Positions 3,420 through 51,478 of a DNA stretch of 64,000 nt are shown piece after piece. Position 1 is the stretch's first letter, and each line of letters starts with the position of its first letter. The notes beneath the pieces were generated by a model, which worked only from the letters and a program-made list of their open reading frames with translations, made no database searches and was not told the origin of the DNA. The DNA comes from Enterobacteriaceae endosymbiont of Plateumaris rustica (GTDB lineage Bacteria; Pseudomonadota; Gammaproteobacteria; Enterobacterales; Enterobacteriaceae). The position numbers and the translations under genes are program-made. The stretch covers positions 434,938 to 498,937 of the forward strand of contig NZ_CP046228.1 in the NCBI RefSeq assembly GCF_012562965.1, written 5' to 3'.

Positions 3420-5194
3420 AAATAATATTTTAACTATAATAAAAAAATGAAGTATTAAATCTATAAATTTAAATAAAATTTATAAAATAATTGATAGATT
3501 TGTTAAAAAATTAAAAAATATATCTATATCAAAAATAAAATTTATATTTACAATTTTATAAAATATTACTATTTTTAATATTCATATTATAATTATAAAA
3601 ATTATAGCTAATCTTATTTCAAAATAATCTTAACTATTAATTTATGACAATAAGATTATTTATTAATTCTTCATTTAAAAAAAAATTTTATAGTTTAATT
3701 TCAACTATATAAATTATATTATCATATTTTATCTATGATGAAATAAATAAATATTATTAATTTCTTTTAAAAGTATATTTAAAAATAATTTAAAATTATG
3801 CATAAATTTATTGATTATAAATATAATATAAAATTTTCTTATAAAGTTGTTAAATAATTAGAAGGAAAATATTTAATTAAAAATAGAATTACAGGAAAAA
3901 TTTATTTAAATACTCAATTTTTATATATTTTAATATTTTCATGTTTATTTACTAAATATTATTCTTCAAAAAAAATAGATTATATAAAAAATTTTATAAT
4001 GCTATTTTTAATTTTAAAATTTCTTTACCTACAATAATTCTGAAGTTTTCATACTTAATAAACAATTTAATTCATGTACTTTTACATTGAATATTATGTC
4101 ATACAATAATTAATATTATTATTAAATATATTTTTCATAAATATAGAACATATTCGTACTGAAGAAAATCCTATTAGAAATAAAAAAATTTTTAGATGTA
4201 TTCCTTTTTATAAATATTTTAAACTAAAATAAAATTTTGTTCTTAAGTAGGACTTAAAAAAAAAAGAAGAAATATTTTTTTCTATTATAAAATCTTAAAA
4301 TTATTAATTTATTAGTATTAAAAATAATATAAGAACAAAAAATAATAAAGTTTATTATATAGATTATAAAGTACAAAATAAATAAATTATTATATAAATA
4401 ATTAATTAATAAAGAAATGATTACATTATTTATGTCTTTCAAATGTACTAAATTTATATGATTTTTTCAGATTAAAAAAATTCAATTACTTTATAAAAAA
4501 TATAAATAAATATTTATTTTCATAAAAAAATCTTACTGATACAAATTTATTTTTATTAATTATTCAATAATGTACATCTACTAAAAAACATATATTTAAA
4601 ATATTGATGGTTATAATATTATTTTAATTTTATTTCTAGTATAACTCTAATTAAATAATTTAATTTATATTTAAAAATTACTCTTTTAACAAAATTTTTA
4701 AATAATATTTTAATATTAATATAGAAATTGGATTATATATGTTATCTACTTTTAATTTAAGAATAATAAATAATTTAAGTGAATTAAAAATATTATCAAA
4801 TTTAATAGTTAAAATATTAAATTATTTATTAAATTATCAAGAATATTTTATTACAGTAGCAAAAATATTTCTTTAAGAAAAAGATCTTTAAGTATAGATG
4901 TAATTAATTTTATTTATTATTTAAAAAAATAACTTTCATTATTTTGATAATAGTGAATATTTAAATTTAATTAGTTTAATACAAAAATTTATAGATTAAT
5001 CAATTTCATCAAATATTAATTATTACTATAAAAAATTTATTAACAGTAAAATATCAATGTAATAATTATTAAAAGATTTGTTAAGAAAATATCAATTAAG
5101 AATAAAAACTTTATACTACTAAAATACTATAGATAAAAATAACATAAATTCCATAAAATCTGATATTTTTCATTATGAATCTTATATGATTTGA
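3420..5194 (+). pseudogene. nrdA: nrdA remnant (class Ia ribonucleotide reductase, alpha subunit)
   Basis: Fragments in shifting frames follow E. coli NrdA in order: SINLNKI near 3449; FSYKVVK-stop-LEGKYLIKNRITG near 3830; QFNSC near 4060; ENPIRNKKIFRCIPFYKYF near 4160-4220; MLSTFNLRIINN from 4739; LIQKFID near 4977; LLKDLLRKYQ and IKTLYY near 5070-5120; and a YESYMI end before the stop at 5192. The catalytic region is destroyed: where NrdA has N-L-C-L-E, 4649-4663 reads N-stop-I-I-stop, so the thiyl-radical cysteine codon is ATA. The C-terminal cysteine pair is also gone. Much of the segment between the YYL and LIQKFID homologies is deleted. The normal product reduces ribonucleoside diphosphates. 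Identification is by ordered similarity recalled from the family; ends are approximate. Confidence 0.88.
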
Positions 5195-5205
5195 TAAGAT
5201 TTATT

Positions 5206-6290
5206 AATTACTATTTTAATAGTAAAAAATAATTAATTAAAAGAACCTATATTTTTAGAAAAATTTATAAATATAACTAAATACGATCAACTAAAACATT
5301 ATATTTTTAAAAATTAATTGAAAAATAATTAAGTTTTTTTGGAAACTTAAAAAAATAGATATATTATGTAATCATATTTACTATCAAAATTTATCTGAAT
5401 ATGAAAAACATATATTTATTAGTAACTTAAAATATCAAATTTTACTAGATTCTATTTAAAGAAGGAATGTAAATATAATATTATTAATATTAATATTAAT
5501 TTTTATTTTGAAATTGAAAAATTGTAATTGAAACGTTATCTTTTTTTGAAACGATATATTTTAATCCTTATACTAATATTATTAATGATCCTTCATTAGT
5601 TTTTTATGATATTATTATAAATAAAAATATTATTTTAAAAATAATAGATATTATTAATTATTATAAACTTATTAAAATGACAAATTATTAAAATGTATTT
5701 ATGAAGAAATTCATTTAATTAATAAAACAAAAATTATTATTGATGTATAAGAATTAAAAAAATTATATTTATGTTAAATGAATATTAATATTTTAAAATT
5801 AATAAGATTTTATATTACTTTTGTATTTTTTTTTACTTTTGATAAAAAATAATTAATAGAAAGTAATGTAAAAATTATTCGTTTTATAGCACATGATAAA
5901 TATCTATCTATATATATAATATATAAAGAAAATAAAGATATAGATAGAAAAAATTATTATTAAATATTGTTTTCTGAATATTATTAATTATTTTGAATAC
6001 TATCTAATAGAACAAAAATAAATTAAATATTTATTTTCTCATGAAACTATAAAGGTTTTAAATAAAAAAATTTTATGTCAATATATTAAATATATTACTA
6101 ATGTAAGAATAAAAAAATTATATTAACTTTATTTTTTATGATTAAAAAATTTATAATATGGATTAATTCTTAGTTAATTTCAGGTAATATAAAATAGTTC
6201 TTCAAGAAAATAAAAGTTAATTCTTATTTAGTTAAACAAGTTAATTCTATAGTAAATATAAAAGATTTTAATAATTTTAATTATAATTTC
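5206..6290 (+). pseudogene. nrdB: nrdB remnant (class Ia ribonucleotide reductase, beta subunit)
   Basis: Directly after nrdA', as in E. coli, short frames match NrdB in order: LKEPIF near 5239, then [33 protein letters not shown] at about 5395-5455, an ETI..YT..INDPS segment near 5545-5600, ELKKLYLC near 5750, ESNVKIIRFIAHD near 5860-5895, KILCQYIKYITNVRIKK near 6070-6110, and SYLVKQVNSIV near 6220-6255. Many stops and frameshifts interrupt it. The intact protein holds the di-iron centre and tyrosyl radical. A tyrosine matching the radical tyrosine seems kept, but about four residues after it are deleted. Ends are approximate. Confidence 0.86.
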
Positions 6291-6321: not shown

Positions 6322-6448
6322 ATAACTATATTGAATAATATTATTATATATAATATATTTCTATTAAATTTAATAAAGAAAAAATTGATCATAATAATAA
6401 AAAAATAAAATAAATTTTTCTTTATTATTTAATAATAAAAATTTTAAA

Positions 6449-7747
6449 TTATATATTTTTAATAATAATAAAAAATATTAATCCAGGAGCATATAAAATT
6501 AATGATAATAATAAATGCAAAAGACCAGAAGCATATAACAACCACATACCATATATACACGATCCCATACCTATAAATATATGTAATATATTTTTTTTGT
6601 AAAAAGATATTTTTAATAAATAAGCTCCAACTAAAAAATAAGGAACTAATATCATTTCAGATGATAAAACTAATAAATTATTATAATTTAGTTTAGTTAA
6701 CCAAATTAGAATTAAACATAATTGCATACTACTACTTGTAAACCAAAGTGCAAATGAAGGTGTTTTATTAATATTTTGTTTAGAAAAACATTTAGGAAAA
6801 ATTCCATGTTTTGAAGCTATGTATGGAACTTCAGCTGCCATAATTGCCCAACTCAAATATGCTCCACAGACAGATATAATTAATCCTAAAACTATAATTA
6901 TATTACCCCATTTACCAATTAATATTGTCATTAAACCAGCCATAGATGGATTTTTCATATTAGCTAAATCTATTCTATTAATAACTCCTAGAGATAATAA
7001 TGTAACTAATAAGTACACACATAATGCTATTAGAACTGCTAATAATGTAGCTTTACTTACATCTTTTTTATTTTTAGCTTTAGAAGATAAAATTACCGCT
7101 CCTTCTACTCCAATAAATACCCATAAAGTAATTAACATTGTATTTTTTACTTGTTCCCATATCGGAAATCCAGATTTAATTCCAATAAAATCAATACTAA
7201 ATTTTTTAAAATTAAAAGCTAATATAGATAAAAATATAAATATAACTAATGGAAGTAATTTTCCTAAAGTAGCAATTATATTAATAATTGCAGCAGTTTG
7301 AGTACCATTTAATAGTAAAAAATGTACAGACCAAAGTAAAATAGAAGCTGCTAATATAGATTCCCATGTATTACCATTACCAAAAATTATATAATTATAA
7401 TGATCAGTAAAAAAACTTATCGCAGAAAAAACAATAACTAAATAAGAAACATTAGCAATAACTGCACATAACCAATAACCCCAAGTAGAACAAAATCCTA
7501 TAAGTTCACCAAATCCATCTTTAGCATATGCAAAAATACCACCATCGAGATTAGGTTTTAATTTATGAAGTAATAACATTGAAGTAGCTAAAAAAGTAAT
7601 TCCTATACCAGTAATAATCCATCCTATAATTAATGCAGCAGGACTTGCAATAGCTGCCATATTTTGGGGTAAACTAAAAACACCTGCACCCAACATAGAA
7701 CTAATAACTAATGCTGTTAATGATTTAAGATCTAATTTTTTATCCAA
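6449..7747 (-). CDS. arcD: ArcD-like basic amino acid antiporter (APA family)
   Basis: This 432-residue membrane protein has about 12 hydrophobic segments and belongs to the amino acid-polyamine-organocation family. The N-terminal LGAGVFSLPQNMAA matches the substrate-binding G(S)G-type turn of helix 1, and GGIFAYAKDGFGELIGF and VWVFIGVEGAV resemble ArcD arginine/ornithine antiporters more closely than AdiC or PotE. It would exchange arginine for ornithine across the inner membrane, or act as a net basic amino acid uptake system. The start is TTG, supported by AAGGAAT seven bases upstream; no ATG gives the full N-terminus. No arcABC catabolic genes are nearby. The family is certain; the exact substrate is inferred. 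Confidence 0.82.
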   Translation of the reverse strand: MDKKLDLKSLTALVISSMLGAGVFSLPQNMAAIASPAALIIGWIITGIGITFLATSMLLLHKLKPNLDGGIFAYAKDGFGELIGFCSTWGYWLCAVIANVSYLVIVFSAISFFTDHYNYIIFGNGNTWESILAASILLWSVHFLLLNGTQTAAIINIIATLGKLLPLVIFIFLSILAFNFKKFSIDFIGIKSGFPIWEQVKNTMLITLWVFIGVEGAVILSSKAKNKKDVSKATLLAVLIALCVYLLVTLLSLGVINRIDLANMKNPSMAGLMTILIGKWGNIIIVLGLIISVCGAYLSWAIMAAEVPYIASKHGIFPKCFSKQNINKTPSFALWFTSSSMQLCLILIWLTKLNYNNLLVLSSEMILVPYFLVGAYLLKISFYKKNILHIFIGMGSCIYGMWLLYASGLLHLLLSLILYAPGLIFFIIIKNI

Positions 7748-12197: not shown

Positions 12198-14042
12198 TTA
12201 TGTATGAATACTTTGTAAAATACGATTTTCTAAATTAGAAAATCGTATTATTTTAGACTTTATTGATTTAAATAATATTGAAGTATTACTATAAATTGAT
12301 ATTGTTAATTTTGATCTTGTAATAGCTGTATAAATCAATTCTCTAGTTAATAAAGATGAATATTTATTAGGTAATACTAATGATGTATTATTAAATTCTG
12401 AACCTTGAGATTTATGTACAGTAATTGCATAAGCAATATTATATTTAGGTAAATTATTAATAAGAATATTATGATATTTACCATTAGATAAACTAAATTT
12501 AACTTTTAATTCATTATCTGATGTATCTAAAAAAGTAATTCCTATATCACCATTATATAAATTTAAAAAATCATTATTTTGAGTAATAATAATTGGACGA
12601 CCTATATACCAATCATTTTTTTTATAAGTATTATCTAAAATATTTTTTTTAAAAAATTCATTTTCTAATTGATTATTAATTTCTTTTGTACCAAAAATTC
12701 CATGTTTTACTGCACATAAAATTTGATATTCATTAAAGATTTTAAAAAAATCATGAATATTATTTTTTTTATTCATATAAACAAAATATTTTTTATATTC
12801 TATAATAAATTGATTTATCATGTATTTATATTTTTTTTCATTATTAATATTAATAAATTTAATATCATTAAATTTTTTTTTTAAAAATAATTCTTTAATT
12901 TTTTTCACATTACCTTCTTTTACTAAAATAGATAATTGATTTATTCCTGAATAACATTTATAACGATAATTATATTTTAATAAGCTAATAAAATTACGTA
13001 AAAATAAACATTCATTATTATTTTTATTTTTAATATTATAATTAATTATGCTATATAACCATTCTGAATATTTTTTAGTAAAATTAAATTTTTTAAAATT
13101 ACAAATATCTTGAAAAATAAAACCAAGTTCTATTGGAGGTAATTGATTATCATCACCTAACAAAATTAATCTACTATTAATAGATAAAACATTTAATATT
13201 ATTGACATTAAACTTAAATCAATCATAGATGCTTCATCTATAATTAATAAATCTGTATTTAATTTATTATTAATATTATATATAGTTTCTTTATTATACA
13301 AATTAATTTTTAATAAATGATGAATAGTTGTTGCTTTGTTAGGAATATTTTTTTTTTCTGTTTTAGTTATTAAAAAATTATTTTTTATAAAGTATTGGTT
13401 GATTGATTCTGTTAATCTATTAGCTGCTTTACCTGTACTAGCGACTATTTTAATATTTAATGGAATAGAATATATTTTTATAAAAAAGGTAATTAATTTT
13501 GCTATAATATGAGTTTTTCCTGTTCCAGGAGACCCTGAAATTATACTTATTTTATGTGTATATGCCATAGCTATAGATATTTTTTGATAAATATCACTTG
13601 GTTTAAATAAAGTATTTAATATTTTTTTTATATTATTTACCGGAGGTAAAATAAAATGATTGTTTATTAAATTTTTAATAATTATATTTTCTTCTTTCCA
13701 TATTCTATATAAATAAAGACAATTATTTTGTATTACTAATGGTGTAACTTTTTTTCCATTACTAACAATTGGATAATTTAATAAATTTTTTTCCTGTTTT
13801 TTAATATTATCAATTAATTGCGTTTCTTTTTTTGATAAAATAATATTATTTTTTTTTAATATTTTTTTTATATTAAATTTAATTAATGGTAAACAAGTAT
13901 TACCTTTACCAATAAAATAACTAAGATAAGCAATAATAAACATTAAATATGGTTCATTTTTAGATGCCATTATATATGAAAATTGCAAATCAATTAAACG
14001 AATAAATTTTTTTTTACATAATTTTTTTAAAAAATTATACAT
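12198..14042 (-). CDS. recD: RecBCD subunit RecD (5'-3' helicase)
   Basis: RecD is the fast 5'-3' helicase of exonuclease V. The 614 residues (608 in E. coli) include the P-loop SGSPGTGKTHIIAKL near residue 170, DEASMIDLSLMSI (motif II) near 265, LLGDDNQLPPIELG (motif III), and AYAITVHKSQGSEF plus LIYTAITRSK near the C-terminus. All helicase motifs are intact. The N-terminal RecB-contacting domain is diverged. It is the last gene of the recC-recB-recD cluster and starts 39 bases after the recB stop. Confidence 0.96.
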   Translation of the reverse strand: MYNFLKKLCKKKFIRLIDLQFSYIMASKNEPYLMFIIAYLSYFIGKGNTCLPLIKFNIKKILKKNNIILSKKETQLIDNIKKQEKNLLNYPIVSNGKKVTPLVIQNNCLYLYRIWKEENIIIKNLINNHFILPPVNNIKKILNTLFKPSDIYQKISIAMAYTHKISIISGSPGTGKTHIIAKLITFFIKIYSIPLNIKIVASTGKAANRLTESINQYFIKNNFLITKTEKKNIPNKATTIHHLLKINLYNKETIYNINNKLNTDLLIIDEASMIDLSLMSIILNVLSINSRLILLGDDNQLPPIELGFIFQDICNFKKFNFTKKYSEWLYSIINYNIKNKNNNECLFLRNFISLLKYNYRYKCYSGINQLSILVKEGNVKKIKELFLKKKFNDIKFININNEKKYKYMINQFIIEYKKYFVYMNKKNNIHDFFKIFNEYQILCAVKHGIFGTKEINNQLENEFFKKNILDNTYKKNDWYIGRPIIITQNNDFLNLYNGDIGITFLDTSDNELKVKFSLSNGKYHNILINNLPKYNIAYAITVHKSQGSEFNNTSLVLPNKYSSLLTRELIYTAITRSKLTISIYSNTSILFKSIKSKIIRFSNLENRILQSIHT

Positions 14043-14081: not shown

Positions 14082-17000
14082 TTAAGAAATTAATTGATCT
14101 AATTTTTTAATTAATTTATAAGAAGGTTTTTTTTCCCAAATACCATTTAAATTATTTTTTAAGTTATTAATACCTCTAATATATAAGTATATAACACTTC
14201 CAAAATGTTTTTCATAACTGTAATTTTTAATACGAGAATAAAGATATTTATGTAAGGCTAATGTATATATTTGATATTGTAAATCATATCTATTTAAATA
14301 AATATTTTTTTCTATATATTTTTTAGTGTATTTATTATAATCTTTTCCTAACCAATTAGATTTATAATCTATTATATAATATTTATTTTTCCATAAAAAT
14401 ACCAAATCGATAAATCCTCTTAATATTCCTTGAATATTATTATTAAATATTGGTAATTTCCTAGATATTCTATCATACTTACATATTATTTTATTTAATT
14501 CAATAAAATATAATTCTTTTTTTATATTTAAATAGAATTCTAATTCTGTTATTTTATTTTTGTTTTTTAATTTATTTAAAATAATTTTATCTTTTCCTAA
14601 TGGATGATTTAATATATTTGTTAACCATTTTATTAAAATTATATGCCAAGAATTATCGATCTTTTTATTAGATAATTTATTTTTAATGAAAGAACATGAA
14701 ATTTTTTGAGTAAAATCTAATTTTTTAAAAATATTATGTAAAATAATTCCACTTTCTTTTCCTCTAGGAAAAGTGTGTGATGTTTTTTTTTTATTTTTTT
14801 TAGAATTAAATAATTTATATTTACAAATATTATTATTTAAATGTAAATCATTTTTAAGTTTAGAATAACTTGTAATTAATAAAGTTTTATATTCATCAAT
14901 TTTTAATTTATTATTATATTGAGTAGTATCTTTTTTTTCTATAGGACAAATATAATTATATTTTATTTGTTTTTCTTTAGTTATGATTTTAATATTAATA
15001 TCTTTATTTGCTAAATTAAATAAAAATTTTTTAAAATTTTTTTTATCTATATTATTATTAATATTTATTAAATATTCTACAGCATTTTGATAAAATAAAT
15101 ATTTTTGATATTTTTTTTTATTATTTTTAATATTTCCTATACCAATACTGCAATGAAAAATTGATCTAGTTAAAGATACATATAATAATCTTAAATTTTC
15201 TGATAATAATTCTTCTAATGCATATTTTATGCTATTATCATTTTTTTTAAAATCTATAATTGTTTTTAATGTTTTTCTATCATGAAAAATTATTGCTTCA
15301 TCATTTACTAAATCTAAAAAATTAGAAGTAATAAAAGGTATCCATACTAATGGAAATTGTAATCCTTTAGCTTTATGAATAGTAATTATTTTTATTTGAT
15401 TAAGGTCATTTTGTATTCTTATTTGTTGATCAATTGATCTATTATTTGGAAATGAAATTTGTTTTAATAACCAAATAATTATTTGTTTTTTATTTTTAAT
15501 TTTTATAAATTCTATTTCTATTAATTCTGCTATATGTAATATATTTTGTATTTTTTTTTTATAAACACTATTAATTATATTTTTTTTACATAAAAAATTT
15601 TTTTGTAAAAAAATTTTTTCTAACATGAATAAAATACCATTTTTATCCCATAAATTTTTATATTCAATAAATTGATTAATACTTTTTTCTAAAAATAATT
15701 TTTCTTTTATATAGTCTAAATTAGATAAATTTATATTAAATAAATCACTTACTAGAACATTTTTTAATTGTTTTATTTTATGTGGTTCCAAAATAGTTTG
15801 TAACAATAATACTAATTCTTTTGCTTCTATTGTTTCAAAAACACTATTAGAATTAGATAAATAAATAGAAGGAATATTAAATTTAATAAATTCTTTTTGT
15901 ATAATATTAGCTTCGTATTTATTACGTACTAATACTGTTATATCTGAAATATTAATATTTCTACTATTATTTATATTTTTTTGTAAAAAAATTTTTTTTT
16001 GTTGACCTAGTATAAGCCATTGACAAATTTCATAAGCACATTGATATGACATTTTTTGTTTATATAAATTTATATTTATTTCTTCAGGAAAAAACCAAAA
16101 AGTAATTCCTGGTTGAATTATATTATTTATAATAAAATTATAATTTAATTTTTGTTTTACATATGATATAGGATAAAAAACTATATTTTTTAAAAAAAAA
16201 GAATATTTACAATTGGAAAATATTTTATTAACACTATTAACCATAGTTTTAGATGATCTCCAATTATTTTTTAATGTATAACGATTTTTAATCTCAAAAG
16301 AAGCTTTGATATAAGTAAAAATATCAGCTCCTCTAAAAGAATAAATTGCTTGTTTAGGATCTCCGATTAATATTAATGTACAATTAGAATGATTTATATA
16401 TATTTTTTTAAAAATATTATATTGTTGAACATCTGTATCTTGAAATTCATCTATCAATGCTACAGGATATAATTTTCTTATATCTGCTGCTAAATTTTTA
16501 TTGATAATAAAATTATCTAGTGATTTATTTAATATTGATAATAAGTCATTAAAACTAATTTGTTCATTTTTTTCTTTATTTTTTTTAACAAAATATTTAA
16601 TATATTTTATAGCTTTAATAATTATTAAAGTTTTTAAATTTATTATTTTATTTAGATATGTATCTATATTTTTAAATAGAATATGTTTTGGGAATTTTTT
16701 TTCATTTATAGTTTTTATAATTAAAATATTTTGAGAAAATCTTTTTAATTGTTCTGGAATAAAATTATCTTTAGTATTACTTAATGCCCATTTATTTATA
16801 CATTTTATCCAAAATTTTATAGATCTATTATTATAAATATGTTTGTTAACATTAGATTCCATAATTATATTAAAAATAATATTATTATATTGAATCCAAT
16901 TTTTTTTTAAAATATTTATATATTTGATATTTTTATTAAATTGTTCTACTAAATTAAAATTATTAAAATAATGTTTAAAATTAGGTAATTCATTTTGTAA

Positions 17001-17615
17001 TAAAAATGGTAATAATTTATTCATTAAATCACTAGGTGTTTTCCAATATTCTAATACAATTTCAGCAATTTTATTCGGTAAAGGATATAAATATTTTCTC
17101 CAAAAACTTATAGATGCATAATTTTGCAAATCAATTTCATTATTAATTAATTTTTTATTATAAACAAAACCATAAATCTCATAATTTTTAATATTTAATA
17201 TTTTTTGACAAAATGCATGAATAGTTAAAATTGTTGCATTATGAAAATTTAATTCTGCTTTTAATAAAATTATACTTGCTTTTTTAAAATTTTTTATTTT
17301 TTTAAGAATTTTATTAACAATAGAAAATTGACTATTACCTTTTATACATGCTATACGTAATATATTTATACTATTTTTTATTCTCTTACATAAATCTTTT
17401 GTTGAAATATCAGTAAATGTAACTACTAATATTTCTTCTACTGATAATGGAATACTAATTTGATTTTTTTTATATAAACCTAATAAAAAACGTAAATACA
17501 TTATAATTATTGTAAAAGTTTTTCCAGTACCAGCTGAAGCTTCAATTAGACATTGTTGATTTAAATTATCTGTAAAAGGATTAAATTCTTTATTTTTTGT
17601 CAAATTCGTTATCAT
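14082..17615 (-). CDS. recB: RecBCD subunit RecB (helicase/nuclease)
   Basis: RecB is the 3'-5' helicase and the only nuclease of RecBCD. The SF1 P-loop IEASAGTGKTFTI lies about 25 residues from the start, VALIDEFQDTD is motif II, and IITIHKAKGLQFP is a later motif. Near the C-terminus, LRGFIDLVF and YIIDYKSNWLG supply the nuclease Asp, Asp and Lys. All catalytic residues seen are intact. The frame is open from 17693, but ATG at 17615 gives 1,177 residues (E. coli 1,180), puts the P-loop where expected, and avoids overlap with recC, which ends at 17630. ptrA, found between recC and recB in E. coli, is absent. Confidence 0.95.
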   Translation of the reverse strand: MITNLTKNKEFNPFTDNLNQQCLIEASAGTGKTFTIIIMYLRFLLGLYKKNQISIPLSVEEILVVTFTDISTKDLCKRIKNSINILRIACIKGNSQFSIVNKILKKIKNFKKASIILLKAELNFHNATILTIHAFCQKILNIKNYEIYGFVYNKKLINNEIDLQNYASISFWRKYLYPLPNKIAEIVLEYWKTPSDLMNKLLPFLLQNELPNFKHYFNNFNLVEQFNKNIKYINILKKNWIQYNNIIFNIIMESNVNKHIYNNRSIKFWIKCINKWALSNTKDNFIPEQLKRFSQNILIIKTINEKKFPKHILFKNIDTYLNKIINLKTLIIIKAIKYIKYFVKKNKEKNEQISFNDLLSILNKSLDNFIINKNLAADIRKLYPVALIDEFQDTDVQQYNIFKKIYINHSNCTLILIGDPKQAIYSFRGADIFTYIKASFEIKNRYTLKNNWRSSKTMVNSVNKIFSNCKYSFFLKNIVFYPISYVKQKLNYNFIINNIIQPGITFWFFPEEININLYKQKMSYQCAYEICQWLILGQQKKIFLQKNINNSRNINISDITVLVRNKYEANIIQKEFIKFNIPSIYLSNSNSVFETIEAKELVLLLQTILEPHKIKQLKNVLVSDLFNINLSNLDYIKEKLFLEKSINQFIEYKNLWDKNGILFMLEKIFLQKNFLCKKNIINSVYKKKIQNILHIAELIEIEFIKIKNKKQIIIWLLKQISFPNNRSIDQQIRIQNDLNQIKIITIHKAKGLQFPLVWIPFITSNFLDLVNDEAIIFHDRKTLKTIIDFKKNDNSIKYALEELLSENLRLLYVSLTRSIFHCSIGIGNIKNNKKKYQKYLFYQNAVEYLININNNIDKKNFKKFLFNLANKDINIKIITKEKQIKYNYICPIEKKDTTQYNNKLKIDEYKTLLITSYSKLKNDLHLNNNICKYKLFNSKKNKKKTSHTFPRGKESGIILHNIFKKLDFTQKISCSFIKNKLSNKKIDNSWHIILIKWLTNILNHPLGKDKIILNKLKNKNKITELEFYLNIKKELYFIELNKIICKYDRISRKLPIFNNNIQGILRGFIDLVFLWKNKYYIIDYKSNWLGKDYNKYTKKYIEKNIYLNRYDLQYQIYTLALHKYLYSRIKNYSYEKHFGSVIYLYIRGINNLKNNLNGIWEKKPSYKLIKKLDQLIS

Positions 17616-17629
17616 ATAAATAAAATTTT

Positions 17630-20600
17630 TTATTTTATATAAATTTTTATAGGTAACAACCATTTTTCTATTAATTTTATTGTTTTTAACCAATTTTTTT
17701 CATCAAAAAAATAATTAATTTTATTAAAATATAAATTTTTATTTTTCTCTATAAAATTAAAATTCATATTCCAAAAATGAAAAAAATATTTTTTTGCTTT
17801 TTTTTGTATAAAAATATCATAATTAATACATTTATTTTTTTTATCATAACAATAATCTAACCATTTCCAAGCACTTTTCATAGGTAATATAATCGGATTA
17901 TTTAATCCACACACATATCCATCGATATATTTTTTTAATAAAACTATTGCTATATTAGAATTAATATAATTAAAACTATATTTAGTATTTTTAAAACCTA
18001 TAATTGTTGAAGTAAATTCTTTTCCTTTTCTAATATTTATTACACATAAAATTAAATGTTTAATCCAAAAAGATATAATAGATTTTATATCTATAATTTT
18101 AGGTTCATATCTTATATACCCTTTATTATAACTTATAAAATTTATTTTTCCATATAATATTATTTCTGATATATTTATATCAATATACTTAATAATATTA
18201 TTATATTTATATAATTTTAAATCATTATTAAGTAATTTACATATTTTTTTTTTTTCATTATTCCATAATATTTTTCCATAATTACCATAAGGTAAAATTC
18301 CTTTATTTAAATAATTATAATAAATTAAGTTAATATTTGTATTAAATATTAAGGAATATAATATTTTTTTATCAATTTGGTATTTTGTTAAATAATCTAA
18401 TGAAAAAGGTTCTATTTCGGAAAATTGAATTTGATTTAAATCATGTAAATATACTCCTAATCTTTGATTAAAAAATCCTTTTACAGGATCTTTCCAAAAA
18501 TTTAAAAGATTTTTTATAATAATTTTTTTTATTTTTAATTTTGATAATTTACTAAAATAAATATTTTGTTTTTTTAAAAAATTATAATTATTAATATTAA
18601 AATTTATAAAAATATCATTTTTTTTATTTACATGATATATGTGTTTGATGATACAATCAGATATTTTATTTTTTTCAATATAGTAGTTATTGTAAATATA
18701 TTCTAATAACTCAGTAATCAAAATAGAAGGGTATATTTTATTATAATTTATATTTTTATTATCAATATAACTTAAATATAATTTTTCTTTAGAAGACATC
18801 AATAATTCAAGAAAAAAATATTTTTCTTTATCTAAATTATTTTCATCATGTTTTTTAGGGTATTTCTTTATTAAATTAAAAATAACTGGATATGAATTTT
18901 TAAGATAATATTTACTATTCATACCTATTACAAAACTAACTTTAAAATCTATTCCATTTAATTGTTCAAAATTACAAAAATTAATTTTATTTAAAGAATA
19001 ATGAAAAAAATATTTTTTTTTTTCTAATAGATTTTGAAATTCTTTAATAATAATATTAATAGATATTTTTTGTTCATAATTTGAATTTAATCCACTGTCA
19101 ATAAATAATATTATATTTTTAATAATATATTTCATATATTTATTTGAATCAATATTTGAACAAAAAAAATCTGAATATAATTTAATTAAAATTTTTTTCC
19201 AATTTTTTATTTTTTGTTTTTTATTTAATTTTTTTTTCCATTTATATAATGTAAATAAAAAATGAGTAAATTTACCTAATAATTCTCCTAATATTCCATA
19301 TATACCATTATATGGTAATATACCATTCCAATTTCCTGAATTATTATCTATAGCATATCCATAAAACATACGATATAATCCAAATTTCCAGGTATATTGA
19401 TCTTTAGTTAAAGAAATTTTTTTGAAATTACTAAAATCTAAATTATATTTAATACCAATATCATTTATCCAATAACGTAAATATATTAAATCATCTTTAT
19501 TATTAATAGAAAATTTTTTCGAAATTTCATTATTATCTAATAAATAAAATATTTCTTCAGGATTAAATTTTTTTGTTGATAAATTTAATAAAAAAAAAAA
19601 ATATCTGGTATATTAAAAATATTATTTTTATTAAAATCTAAATAAATGTTAAAAGGTATTTGTTTTTTATTAAAAATAGAATAAATAAAAGGTAAATATA
19701 TATTTATATTAGGAGAAATTACAATAATTTCATGTAAATAATAATTTTTATTATTTATTAATTTAATAATATTAAATGATAAAAATTCTATTTCTTGTTT
19801 AAGATCTGTAAAAACATTTATTTGTATAGAATCATCTGACATATTAATTTTTTTTTTATTATTCTTTAATAAAAAATTTTCTTTTAATAAACTAATATCT
19901 TTTTTTATATTATTTAATAAATTTAAAGATTTTATTTTTACAAATGATTCTATCATTCTTGATGATACATTTATTAATTTATTTATATTATTTATTCCAT
20001 AATTTCCCCAAGAAAATAATAATGAATTATAAAAATTATAATTATTATTTATTTGAATATTATCCCAATAATGTATACAAGGATTTTTAATTAAGATATG
20101 AATTTCTATATATTTTGTTAATTTTTCTAATAATTGTAAATATATTAAAGGTATATTTTGTGTTTCTAAAATAAATATTCTTTCCGGTAAAACGGAATAT
20201 TTAATTTTTTTTTTCTTATTTATAAAAAAATTATATAATCTACTAAGATACCATAATTTTTTACCTAATATAATTTTATTATATATAATTATTTGTTTCC
20301 ATAATTTTGCTTGCCAAATTTGATCTTTATTATTTGGAAAAAATGAGATTTTATCTTTTTCCCATAAATATAACCATTCTGGACGATATTTTTGATATTC
20401 ATCATATAAATTAGCAATTTGAATTGATATTTCATATAAATAATTAGTATTATTTATATTATTTAAATATTTATGAAAATTTTTAAATTCAGGTAAAACA
20501 ACTGTTTTTGGAATAATATTCATCAATTGCCAAGTAATCATTTTTTTATTAAAAATATTACCTTTTTTAATTTGTGGAATAATTTTTATAAATAAATTCC

Positions 20601-20808
20601 AAATAAATTTTTCTGGATTTATATAACTAATATTAGTATGTATTCCCATTATTTTAGAAAAATAAATTTTTAAATATGGAATAAATGTTGAATTTGGTAA
20701 AATTATAATTTCTGTTTGTAATGGATTATTTAATGGTTTTTTTATAATATTATATTTTATTAAATTTAATAAAATATCTAAATTATTAGAACGATATATT
20801 GTAAACAT
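17630..20808 (-). pseudogene. recC: recC with a single frameshift in a 12-base homopolymer
   Basis: RecC recognises Chi and holds the RecBCD complex together. Two open segments, 20808-19585 and about 19600-17630, together give about 1,058 residues (E. coli 1,122) and match RecC in order: MFTIYRSN at the start, IFILETQNIP, then TWKFGLYRMFYGYAID, FKVSFVIGMN and KYFFLELLMSS. They are split only at a run of 12 T on the coding strand (19601-19590), where the frame hits TAA at 19587-19585. One added T (or loss of two) restores reading through FLLNLSTKKF, which matches RecC. The rest is well kept, so polymerase slippage or a sequencing error is plausible. I call it a pseudogene with reservation. Confidence 0.85.
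19590..19601. repeat. 12-base A/T homopolymer that breaks recC
   Basis: Twelve A on the plus strand (twelve T in the recC sense) sit at the point where the recC frame is lost. Runs of this length slip readily in replication, transcription and sequencing. The run explains the whole recC disruption. Confidence 0.9.
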
Positions 20809-35542: not shown

Positions 35543-36658
35543 ATGAAAAAAAATATTCAAAAAGTATTGGTTAATCTTAATAATATTAGTAAATCTTATT
35601 TTGGAAAAAAAATTATTTCTAATTTTTATTTAACTATAAATAATGGTGAATTTATTACTTTATTAGGACCATCAGGTTGTGGTAAAACAACTATATTAAG
35701 ATTAATAGCTGGACTAGAAAAAGTTGATAGTGGTTCTATAACATTAGATCAAAAAATAATTACTCATACTTCAGCAGAAAATAGACAAATTAATACTGTT
35801 TTTCAAAATTATGCTTTATTTCCTCATATGTCTGTATTTGATAATATTGCTTTTGGATTAAAAATGCAAAAAAAACCATATAAAGAAATAATATCTAGAG
35901 TAAAAAATATCTTATATATGATTCAATTACAAAATTTTGCTAATAGAAAACCTTACGAATTATCTGGAGGACAACAACAAAGAGTAGCTATAGCTAGAGC
36001 TATTGTAAATAAACCTAGAATTTTACTTTTAGATGAATCATTATCAGCTTTGGACTATAGATTAAGAAGAAAAATGCAAAATGAATTAAAAATGTTACAA
36101 AGAAAATTAGGAATTACTTTTGTATTTGTTACTCATAATCAAGAAGAAGCATTAATGATGTCAGATCGTATTGTTGTATTACGTAATGGTAAGATAGAAC
36201 AAGATGGAACACCTAGAGAAATATATGAAGAACCAAAAAATTTATTTGTTGCTAAATTTATAGGTGATATAAATATATTTAATGCTACTATTATTAAAAA
36301 ATTAAATAATACACAAGTTACAGTTAATTTAGAAGGATATTTATGTAATATACAAGTTCCATTTACTGTAATTCTAGGAGAAAAGATACATGTCTTATTA
36401 AGACCAGAAGATTTAAGAATAAAAGAAATAGATATCCATAATCAATATATTCATGGTTTAATTGGATATGTTAAAGATCAAAGTTATAAAGGCATGACAT
36501 TAGAAACTATTCTAGAACTTGAAAATGGTAAAATAATTACTGTAAGTGAATTTTTTAATGAAAATGATCCAGATTTTAATCATTCTATTAATCAAAAAAT
36601 GATAATTAATTGGGTTGAAACATGGGAGGTAGTATTACCTTATGAAAAAAATAACTAA
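35543..36658 (+). CDS. potA: Spermidine/putrescine ABC transporter ATPase PotA
   Basis: PotA powers polyamine import through PotB and PotC. The Walker A is [10 protein letters not shown] near residue 45, the signature [14 protein letters not shown] near 140, Walker [13 protein letters not shown] near 160, and the switch His is in THNQEEAL. The C-terminal regulatory TOBE-type domain ([24 protein letters not shown]) matches PotA and not the broader MalK group. Length is 371 residues against 378. It overlaps potB by 17 bases, indicating translational coupling. Confidence 0.96.
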
Positions 36659-37508
36659 ATATTCTAAAAAAATAATAATTTTTATAGTAATAAGTTGGTT
36701 ATTATTATTTATTTTCCTTCCAAATTTAATAATAATGATTATTAGTTTTACAACAAAAGATGATATTAATTTTATTAAATTTAATTTCAATTTAAATAAT
36801 TATAAACTTATATTAGATAATTTATATATGAATATATTTATATATTCTTTATATATATCATTCATAACAACAATAATTTGTCTTATTATTGGATATTTAT
36901 TTTCATGGTGTTTAATTAAAATATCATATTATTACAGATCTATAATGTTATTTTTTTTATTTTTACCTTTCTGGGTTAATTCATTAATTAGAATTTTTTC
37001 TTTAAAAAATTTTTTCAGTGTACATGGTTATTTTAATAAAACACTTATTTATCTAAAATTAATTAATCATCCTATACATATTATATATACTTCTTTTGCT
37101 ATTGTTTTAGGACTAGTATATATTTTATTACCTTTTATGATTATACCAATATATTATAGTCTAGAAAAATTAGATATGTTCTGCGTAGAAGCTGCTAAAG
37201 ATTTGGGAGCTAAACCATGGAAAAATTTTTTTTATATAATATTACCATTAACATTATCAGGAATTATTTCAGGATCTTTATTAGTATTTTTACCTTCTAT
37301 GGGAATGTTTTATATTGCAGACTTAATGGGTGGTACAAAAAATTTATTAATAGGAAATATTATAAAAAATCAATTTCTTAATATAAGAGATTGGCCATTA
37401 GGTGCTAGTTTAAGTAATATAGTAATATTAATTACAGGAATATTTTTAATATTATATTATAAATTAATACAAATTTTTAATAAAAAGGAATTTTTAAAAA
37501 ATGTTTAA
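36642..37508 (+). CDS. potB: Spermidine/putrescine ABC transporter permease PotB
   Basis: PotB is one of the two membrane subunits. The 288 residues contain about six membrane helices and the EAA loop [20 protein letters not shown] near residue 180, which contacts Pot[32 protein letters not shown] and [12 protein letters not shown] match E. coli PotB (275 residues). The overlaps with both potA and potC keep the operon tight. Confidence 0.95.
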
Positions 37509-47742: not shown

Positions 47743-49083
47743 TTAAATTCCTGAAATCATCATTTCAGATATAAGAATAGATCCACACTGTATAATATTT
47801 CTTTTTTCAATATCATTACTAATATCTGAAATAGATAACCATATTTTTTTTAAATTTGAAGATATTGTTACTTCACTAACTGGAAATATTATCTTTCCAT
47901 TTTCAACCCAAAAACCACATACTCCACGAGAATAATCTCCTGTAATATTATTAACTCCATTAGACATCAATTCTGTTACAATTAATCCATTATTCATTTT
48001 TTTTATTAAAGTATTATAATCTATATTATTTTTATTATTAATATACCAATTATATATTCCTCCAGAATGTCCATTATTTTCTATATGTAATTTATTTGAC
48101 GTATAATTATTTAGTAACCAATTTTTTAAAATTCCATTTTGTACTATTACTATTTTTTTTGTACTTACTCCTTCATTATCAAAAGGTTTAGATCCTAAAC
48201 CTTGTAAAACATGAGGATCTTCTATAATATTTAACCATTCTGGAAAGATTAATTTATTTAATGAATTAGATAAAAATGTTAATTTTTGATAAACATAATA
48301 TCCATTAATTAATTCAGCTAAATGTTTAAATAAAGAACATGATATTTCACTTGAAAAAATTATTGGAGATTTTTGAGTTTTAATCTTACGTGATCCTAAT
48401 TTTTTTAATGATTTTTTTGCACTATCTTTTCCTAATATTTTAGCAGAATATAAATTAGGAATTGATCTTGATATAGAATATGAATAACTACATTCCATTT
48501 TATTATTTTCTTGAGCTATAATAGAAAGATATAATGAATAATATGTAGAAATATAACTCTGTAGTATTCCTAAACTATTTGCAAATATATGAATTGTTGC
48601 AAAACTATTAAAATCTCCTCCGTTACTAACAATACGTTTATCTGTATTTACCGCAATTTTTTCACTTTCTTTAAGAATAAAAATATATTTATTTTTATCT
48701 ATATTAGAAATATGAAAAAGATCTAAATCAATTTTATTAAAAGCTAGTAATTCATATTTAGGTAATCCTAAACATATATCATATGTTGTATAATTACTTG
48801 AATTTATCGCATAATATATAGTTTTTTTTATATTATTTAATGATAAATTATTTGTTTTAGCAAATCCTTTTTGATAATTTTTATAAACATTAATAGAAAA
48901 TGATTCATTATTATAAAATTCTGATGTTTGTGTAGTTCCATTACGAATATTTATATTAAATCCTATTATTTTTTTAATTGTCATTTCAAAATTTTTAATT
49001 TCTTTTTTAGTTAATATTATATAATTTAATATTTTAGATTCTAATATACTACGTTCTTTTATAATTTTTGAAAATATTTTCAT
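47743..49083 (-). CDS. pmbA: TldE/PmbA, TldD-TldE protease partner
   Basis: PmbA (TldE) pairs with TldD to form a metalloprotease that degrades unfolded peptides and, in E. coli, processes microcin B17 and the CcdA antitoxin. The 446 residues (450 in E. coli) keep IRNGTTQTSEFYNNES, KAL-type GSRKIKTQKSPIIFSSE, SKPFDNEGVSTKKIVIVQNG and the C-terminal NNITGDYSRGVCGFWVENG block. TldD, which holds the zinc site, is not in the window. It is unusual to keep in a reduced genome. It is divergent from ppa. Confidence 0.93.
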   Translation of the reverse strand: MKIFSKIIKERSILESKILNYIILTKKEIKNFEMTIKKIIGFNINIRNGTTQTSEFYNNESFSINVYKNYQKGFAKTNNLSLNNIKKTIYYAINSSNYTTYDICLGLPKYELLAFNKIDLDLFHISNIDKNKYIFILKESEKIAVNTDKRIVSNGGDFNSFATIHIFANSLGILQSYISTYYSLYLSIIAQENNKMECSYSYSISRSIPNLYSAKILGKDSAKKSLKKLGSRKIKTQKSPIIFSSEISCSLFKHLAELINGYYVYQKLTFLSNSLNKLIFPEWLNIIEDPHVLQGLGSKPFDNEGVSTKKIVIVQNGILKNWLLNNYTSNKLHIENNGHSGGIYNWYINNKNNIDYNTLIKKMNNGLIVTELMSNGVNNITGDYSRGVCGFWVENGKIIFPVSEVTISSNLKKIWLSISDISNDIEKRNIIQCGSILISEMMISGI

Positions 49084-49889: not shown

Positions 49890-51478
49890 TATATATAAAT
49901 TATATTTTTATTACTATAAGAGTAACTTCTTTTTTAGTTAAAGAAGTAACTACAAACTAGTTAAATTCAATTTTTGAAAATAGAAATAAAAGTCAATATA
50001 ATTGAATTAAATTCATATATTAATTTTAGTAGTAAAATTAAATTTCCATCAATGTGGAAAAGTATTTTTTAACGATAATGATGCTGAAATTAATTTAAAT
50101 TTTGAATATTATGAATTATTTATAAAAACTATAATGTCTCATTTTAATAATTTTAATACTTGTTATATATTCTAAAGTATTAAAAAAAGAAAGAGAAAAA
50201 ATATCTTGGATATAATAATTAAAGTTATTCCATAATTATTAATATTATAAAAAACATATAACTGATTTATAAAAAATAAAGGATATAATATAATTTTAGT
50301 AAAAATAGAATATACAGTTAAAAATATAGAATTTTTATCTTTTCTTGAAAATATCAATTAAATATTATTAGATATAGGAAAAGATAGAATAATTTATATT
50401 TATTTAAATAACTAAAAAAATAAAAATAAAACCTACAAAACTTTTCATGAAAGAATTACTATCAATAAAAATATAATCAGATATATTATGTTAATTTAGT
50501 TACTCAATATCTAATTTTAAAAATATTAAAATTATATCATTTTGTAATTTATCAAAAAAAGTTATTATTTTTTTAAATGATATTAATTTTATATATAAAA
50601 TACTTATTTTATTAAATAAATAAAGTTTAGATAATTATGTATATAATAAATTTAATTTAACTTACAGAAACTAAACTTACTAAATAGAAAAAAATATTAA
50701 ATAAAGAATTTAATTTTAAAGATTATGTTAATATTAGTATAATATGAAAATATACTAAATTATCAGATACATATAAATCAGTAATAGAAACATTAAAACG
50801 TGAGGGATTAAAAAATCAAATTTATGTAAATATTAAATTCATTAATTCTGAATTAATGAATATTAAGGGAATAAATATTTTAAATAAATTTAATAAAATT
50901 TTTATTTTTGATAGTTTTAATTCTAGAGGTATTAAAGAAAAATTGAAAACAGTAGAATAAAAGAATAATATTCCTTATTTTGAAATATGTTTTAAAATGC
51001 ATATAATTTTAATTAAATTTTCACGTAATGTTTTTAAAATAATTTATGCAATTTAATTGAATTTAATTTAAATTACAAAAAATTAATTATAAAATTAATT
51101 AATCAAAATAATAATTTCAATTATAATCTAAATATAAAAGAATTATAAAGTAAAATGAGATTAGATAATCAACAATGTCAATTAAATGAATTAAATTTAT
51201 TATATCAATTTTATAAATTTAATAATATTATTAAAAGACATCGTCATAAATATAAAGTAAATAATTTATTAATTTATAAACTTATTCAACATGATTTGTT
51301 AATAGTAATAAGATCAAAAAATAAATTATTTGTAGAAATTATTAAAATTTCTAATTATTCGTGGTTTATTGGTTATCAATTTCATCCAGAATTTATTTTT
51401 AATTTTCATAATAATCATTTATTATTTATAGATTTTATAAAATCTTCTATGAAAAAAGTCAATTTAAATATTAAATAG
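49890..51478 (+). pseudogene. pyrG: pyrG remnant (CTP synthase)
   Basis: Pieces of CTP synthase follow in order: LNSIFENRN and IELNSYINF near 49965-50030, HQCGKVFF and AEINLNFEYYELFIKT near 50048-50130, YKSVIETLKREGLKNQIYVNIKFINS near 50770-50850, NNIPYFEICF near 50960-50995, then an open 107-codon segment (51155-51478) with MRLDNQQCQL, ERHRH-like KRHRHKYKVNN and GYQFHPEF. The last piece keeps the glutaminase His and Glu, but the synthetase half is wrecked by stops, frameshifts and deletions. pyrG directly precedes eno in E. coli, which confirms identity. The enzyme turns UTP into CTP. The upstream edge is approximate. Confidence 0.9.
49921..49951. terminator. Possible hairpin after ppa
   Basis: Arms of 11 bases at 49921-49931 and 49941-49951 pair except for one mismatch, around a 9-base loop. 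The element may be an old terminator of ppa, but it lies 190 bases after the stop and overlaps the presumed pyrG N-terminus. Confidence 0.28.

Follow-up and report, generated by a model that had tools for sequence, protein, structure and literature searches.

The recC gene of the Enterobacteriaceae endosymbiont of the reed beetle Plateumaris rustica is divided into two open reading frames by a single one-base shift inside a run of 12 T, and the same shift is present in the symbionts of P. braccata and P. consimilis. Slippage on the run appears to be the most likely explanation because the shift is old and shared by several species and yet recC evolves like a working gene. Hence, we consider it probable, from comparison of the genomes, that recC here is a working gene dependent on RNA polymerase stuttering on the run.

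The window, i.e. the whole 64,000-nucleotide stretch that was analysed, carries recC on the minus strand. The upstream part (19585-20808) is an ORF of 407 aa with 402 codons before the run, and the downstream part (17630-19585) follows in the -1 frame with 651 codons and a stop. Between them lies the homopolymer (19590-19601, minus strand), which is the site of the -1 shift common to the three symbionts. The forward strand reads A12 at these positions; in the sense of recC the run is therefore T12 (U12 in the mRNA) rather than poly(A). In an uncorrected message, TAA follows directly on the codon in which the run ends, so that the stop of the upstream part adjoins the run. The downstream open frame measures 660 aa in all, and its first ATG lies 72 codons in, at 19369, leaving an ORF of 579 aa (17630-19369). 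With the intact recC of the P. sericea and P. pusilla symbionts as queries, the P. rustica gene was recovered as two pieces in two frames with no stops. The claim of the first-pass annotation that recC is broken only by a one-base shift in a 12-base run was thus confirmed, as 402 and 651 codons remain open and are parted by the -1 shift alone.

Both parts were identified by profile searches. The upstream half matches Exonuc_V_gamma (PF04257, E 4.1e-59) and the downstream half RecC_C (PF17946, E 2e-35), each above the cut-off, and the two halves correspond to successive parts of the NCBIfam RecC models. Each part scores below the whole-protein NCBIfam cut-offs; the intact P. sericea RecC is also under the cut-off of TIGR01450 (565 vs 582.9 bits). 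The shift site falls at a position corresponding approximately to residues 453-457 of Escherichia coli RecC (alignment by eye). A search of the window against Rfam returned no match.

The same shift was found in three of the 24 genomes of the genus, with open frames of 411 and 660 aa (G000), 411 and 659 aa (G012) and 417 and 659 aa (G019). The remaining 21 are not split at the site; 20 of them have an open frame of 1025-1082 aa, and G003, in which an N gap lies here, one of 889 aa. The spacer from the last shared GAT codon to a shared AAT codon is 17 bases in the trio and 18 bases in the intact P. sericea and P. pusilla genes. P. rustica has a run of T12 and the other two split species T10 each, whereas in P. 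sericea and P. pusilla the run at this site is interrupted. T10 runs are also found near the site, in frame, in four unsplit genomes (G014, G022, G007 and G017), so such a run need not break recC. Outside the genus, a recC match in one genome (G033:C1:346642-347709) counts a single inner TAA, which may reflect the match running past an end.

A tree built from other genes of the region without recC (13,160 columns, three outgroup genomes of the genus) groups the three split species as a monophyletic clade with 100/100 support; the downstream recC part alone recovers this clade weakly (78/59). A single ancestral deletion is the simplest history of the shift because the three split species form one clade; two parallel deletions would be a less simple account. 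A crude clock, accurate only to an order of magnitude as it assumes a strict rate, a midpoint root and a calibration of 75-100 My quoted in PMC7289800, dates the ancestor of the trio to 21-27 My and the crown of Plateumaris to 24-32 My. The deletion would then be, very roughly, 20-30 My old.

Under a single origin, the differences within the trio arose after the shift. RecC residues differ by 12-23% among the three split species; neither part has acquired a stop or a further frame change in any of them, and codon-sized gap columns in the recC parts number at most three per comparison. When P. sericea recC was the query, one stop was counted in P. braccata and two in P. consimilis, in pieces that overlap and run past the junction; with the P. 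pusilla query the recC pieces of both species contain none. Using our own pairwise codon model on the recC parts together with 39 genes of 140 codons or more, omega within the trio was estimated at 0.099, 0.064 and 0.065 for the downstream part and 0.237, 0.238 and 0.134 for the upstream part, compared with 0.106 and 0.245, respectively, in the intact pair (P. sericea and P. pusilla). The balance of amino-acid-changing to silent codon differences in the trio is likewise similar to that of the intact pair (Fisher p 0.12-0.75). Relative rates, trio over intact pair, are ordinary: 2.42 for the downstream part (9 of 38 genes are higher), 1.82 for the upstream part (31 of 38 are higher) and 3.05 for recB, on 38 genes after shorter or little-changed genes were left out. 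Judged by these comparisons, both recC parts are under purifying selection in all three split species.

The partner subunits are also retained. recB (14082-17663, minus strand) and recD (12198-14042, minus strand) are full length, and their products score above the TIGR00609 and TIGR01447 cut-offs, respectively. The catalytic residues and motifs, which the first-pass annotation had described as fully kept, were compared with the known motifs solely by visual inspection of the translations. recA, recB and recD are present in all 24 genomes of the genus. The recB search counted a TAA inside the match in eight of the 24, and G003 and G023 were matched in two pieces; each of the eight loci with a TAA is one open frame of 1178-1188 codons, that of G023 containing N.

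The probable history is as follows. The common ancestor of the trio would have had a long T-run at the recC site from which one base was lost, and the gene would have been kept since RNA polymerase stutters on a run of 10-12 T. A fraction of the transcripts would gain one U, joining the two frames into full-length RecC, and the remainder would meet the stop at once and give a 407-residue fragment; the reduced supply of RecC would be sufficient for RecBCD. PMC5574713 describes insertions at A/T runs in Buchnera as mostly of one base and as rising exponentially with run length, and in PMC5009743 corrected transcripts of frameshifted symbiont genes amount to 12-50%. The proposal of the first-pass annotation that slippage may yield some full-length RecC is thus favoured by the comparative data, from which we infer the slippage itself. 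That run length acts as a dosage knob setting the supply of RecC for RecBCD, moved from 10 to 12 in P. rustica and kept for some 20-30 My, is a doubtful extension of the idea.

The split recC is a new case, in reed beetle symbionts, of a kind known from Buchnera and Blochmannia (Tamas et al. 2008 and Wernegreen et al. 2010, as cited in PMC3017870 and PMC5009743). These are likewise AT-rich insect endosymbionts, and the genes concerned resemble recC in having a single one-base shift in a long homopolymer, in being otherwise open and in being shared undegraded between species. For Blochmannia, PMC3017870 reports frameshifts at poly(A) and poly(T), some of them conserved between species without degradation, and cites slippage as the rescue; four to eight frameshifted genes per genome are given in PMC4389277. 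Two genomic features of slippage-kept symbiont genes are found in recC, namely one shift inside a long A/T run in a gene that is otherwise open, and a shift shared across species with continued purifying selection. The present case differs in the symbiont lineage, in the T-run on the coding strand and in that the slippage is deduced from sequence. A further parallel is tssM1 of Citrobacter rodentium, which also has an early stop near a long run (11 A); according to PMC4256274, its full-length protein arises by transcriptional slippage, measured at ~20-25%, and both products are needed, whereas the products of the split recC are predicted from its sequence. No title on this recC shift was found in the open-licence literature.

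Because the coding strand reads poly(T) here, ribosomal -1 slippage would serve equally: a ribosome slipping back one base on the U-run would continue in the downstream frame and produce the same protein. It may contribute alongside RNA polymerase; that the ribosome rather than the polymerase makes the correction is, in our assessment, distinctly less probable, at somewhat below one chance in five. The downstream frame is indeed -1, the heptamer U UUU UUU lies in the right phase (by eye), and a -1 shift at the run gives the residues seen in the intact sister species. E. coli dnaX is an example of -1 ribosomal frameshifting and likewise offers a slippery homopolymer and a possible -1 shift. In contrast to frameshifting of the dnaX type, the 90 nt after the run contain no stable structure in any of the trio (z 0.78, -0.09 and 0.53), as assessed with simple, pseudoknot-free folds; of the marks of programmed -1 frameshifting, the slippery heptamer in phase was found and the stimulatory structure was not. 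The runs of 10-12 also exceed the seven bases that a slip site needs, and T runs of at least 10 on the coding strand of intact genes are rare (3, 5 and 4 per genome in the trio, in the halves surveyed), both of which speak against the ribosome.

Under either form of slippage the two frames would be joined. RecC might instead consist of two separate polypeptides, the second started afresh past the run, and the second part does appear in public records as a separate protein, of 652 aa for P. braccata and 639 aa for P. consimilis; we regard such a two-part RecC as highly improbable. The start sites given in these records differ between the species, and no ATG, GTG or TTG common to the trio occurs before codon 72. 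The 72 codons from the run to this first shared ATG remain protein-like and are at least as conserved as the remainder, with 11 of 72 vs 138 of 578 residues changed between P. rustica and P. braccata and 8 of 72 vs 130 of 578 between P. rustica and P. consimilis. The site also lies inside a helix (residues 398-407) in the model of the intact P. sericea RecC, which has a mean pLDDT of 82.8.

It is equally improbable that recC is dead, was broken recently and survives as leftover open frames, although decay is evidently ongoing in these genomes. The shift is older than three species whose RecC proteins have diverged to the extent given above free of stops, and omega is the same as in the intact pair. 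In a neutral simulation, an average of 12.3 stops per 650 codons had accumulated at 0.05 substitutions per site, and none of 2000 runs was free of stops at this distance. Ordinary decay could be seen in the remnants of nrdA and nrdB (3421-6278, plus strand), which served as the control: P. rustica nrdA has 12 stops with 36% of its length matched and nrdB has 27, vs none in the recC parts. The contrast with nrdAB drawn in the first-pass annotation therefore holds, and its view that recC is not decaying by neglect is favoured by purifying selection on both halves and a shift present in three species. Elsewhere, pyrG contains 13 stops in several frames in P. rustica and 14 stops in P. consimilis, where pmbA has 21 and tldD several stops and frames. 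P. braccata pmbA has one shift, away from long runs, and an in-frame stop, and its tldD, in the first 200 kb of the chromosome, has three shifts, one of them at an A10 run; P. rustica tldD is open. The decaying genes nrdAB, pyrG, pmbA and tldD thus carry several to many lesions, unlike recC.

That the shift is a sequencing or assembly error, the alternative raised in the first-pass annotation, is close to negligible: although the site is within a 10-12 base run, a single laboratory and pipeline produced all five Plateumaris genomes, and P. braccata tldD has one shift at A10, three separately sequenced species share the break at the same orthologous position although their run lengths and flanking bases differ, the genomes are SPAdes assemblies of Illumina reads, and full-length genes in the surveyed halves of the three genomes contain 206 A/T runs of at least 10 (59, 72 and 75).

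The survey for frameshifts at runs covered about half of each chromosome (200 kb and the region of the window) and required at least two frames and coverage above 0.7, a rule by which shifts near gene ends would be missed. Within the trio it flagged tldD of P. braccata and, in all three species, one P. sericea ORF, which was rejected as a broken gene as it is, by its sequence, an in-frame leader before another gene. Another P. sericea ORF has four stops in P. consimilis. When searched against P. sericea, ORFs of 292 aa (taken from three species) and 75 aa (taken from one) are split at T4 and T3 contexts; our guess is that these splits stem from an assembly gap in P. sericea, which has 575 N in the stretch. 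Among 55 P. sericea ORFs of the homologous region, 48 are intact-like in P. rustica and 51 in each of P. braccata and P. consimilis. Retention of the run was tested as a sign of selection and given up, since intact genes often retain such runs as well: of 23 runs of at least 10 in intact genes of P. rustica, 10 persist in both other split species.

The case extends the list of endosymbionts living with old frameshifts by a lineage, the reed beetle symbionts, and by a gene, which encodes a subunit of the main enzyme of double-strand-break repair. It also illustrates how a gene in an AT-rich genome can be wrongly called broken at a run, the downstream part of recC being listed as a short protein in two species. 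The three split and two intact sister species provide a natural comparison for slippage and its cost.

Several other losses were observed in the same genomes. nrdA and nrdB are open in the other four Plateumaris symbionts examined and decayed in P. rustica. pyrG, the CTP synthase gene (window 49895-51469), remains open in P. braccata and P. sericea; its decay in P. rustica and, at the homologous loci, in P. consimilis and P. pusilla apparently represents several separate losses. In the homologous region, purB (P. sericea homologues L068:15901-17277 and L068:5183-5761, listed jointly) has no good match in the three split species, nor has the 5-formyltetrahydrofolate cyclo-ligase gene (same pair of loci) in P. 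rustica. The metalloprotease genes tldD (L091:9313-10782) and pmbA (homologues of window 47743-49083) lie far apart and are lost together, both being broken with few lesions in P. braccata, decayed in P. consimilis and open in P. rustica. In P. rustica, alone of the trio, a basic amino acid antiporter gene (window 6359-7696) is interrupted by four stops in its final portion, so that its end is truncated. In the P. braccata homologue of window 36642-37508, the coding strand carries T14 vs T8 in the other four species, a six-base difference by which the frame is preserved, and the gene is open.
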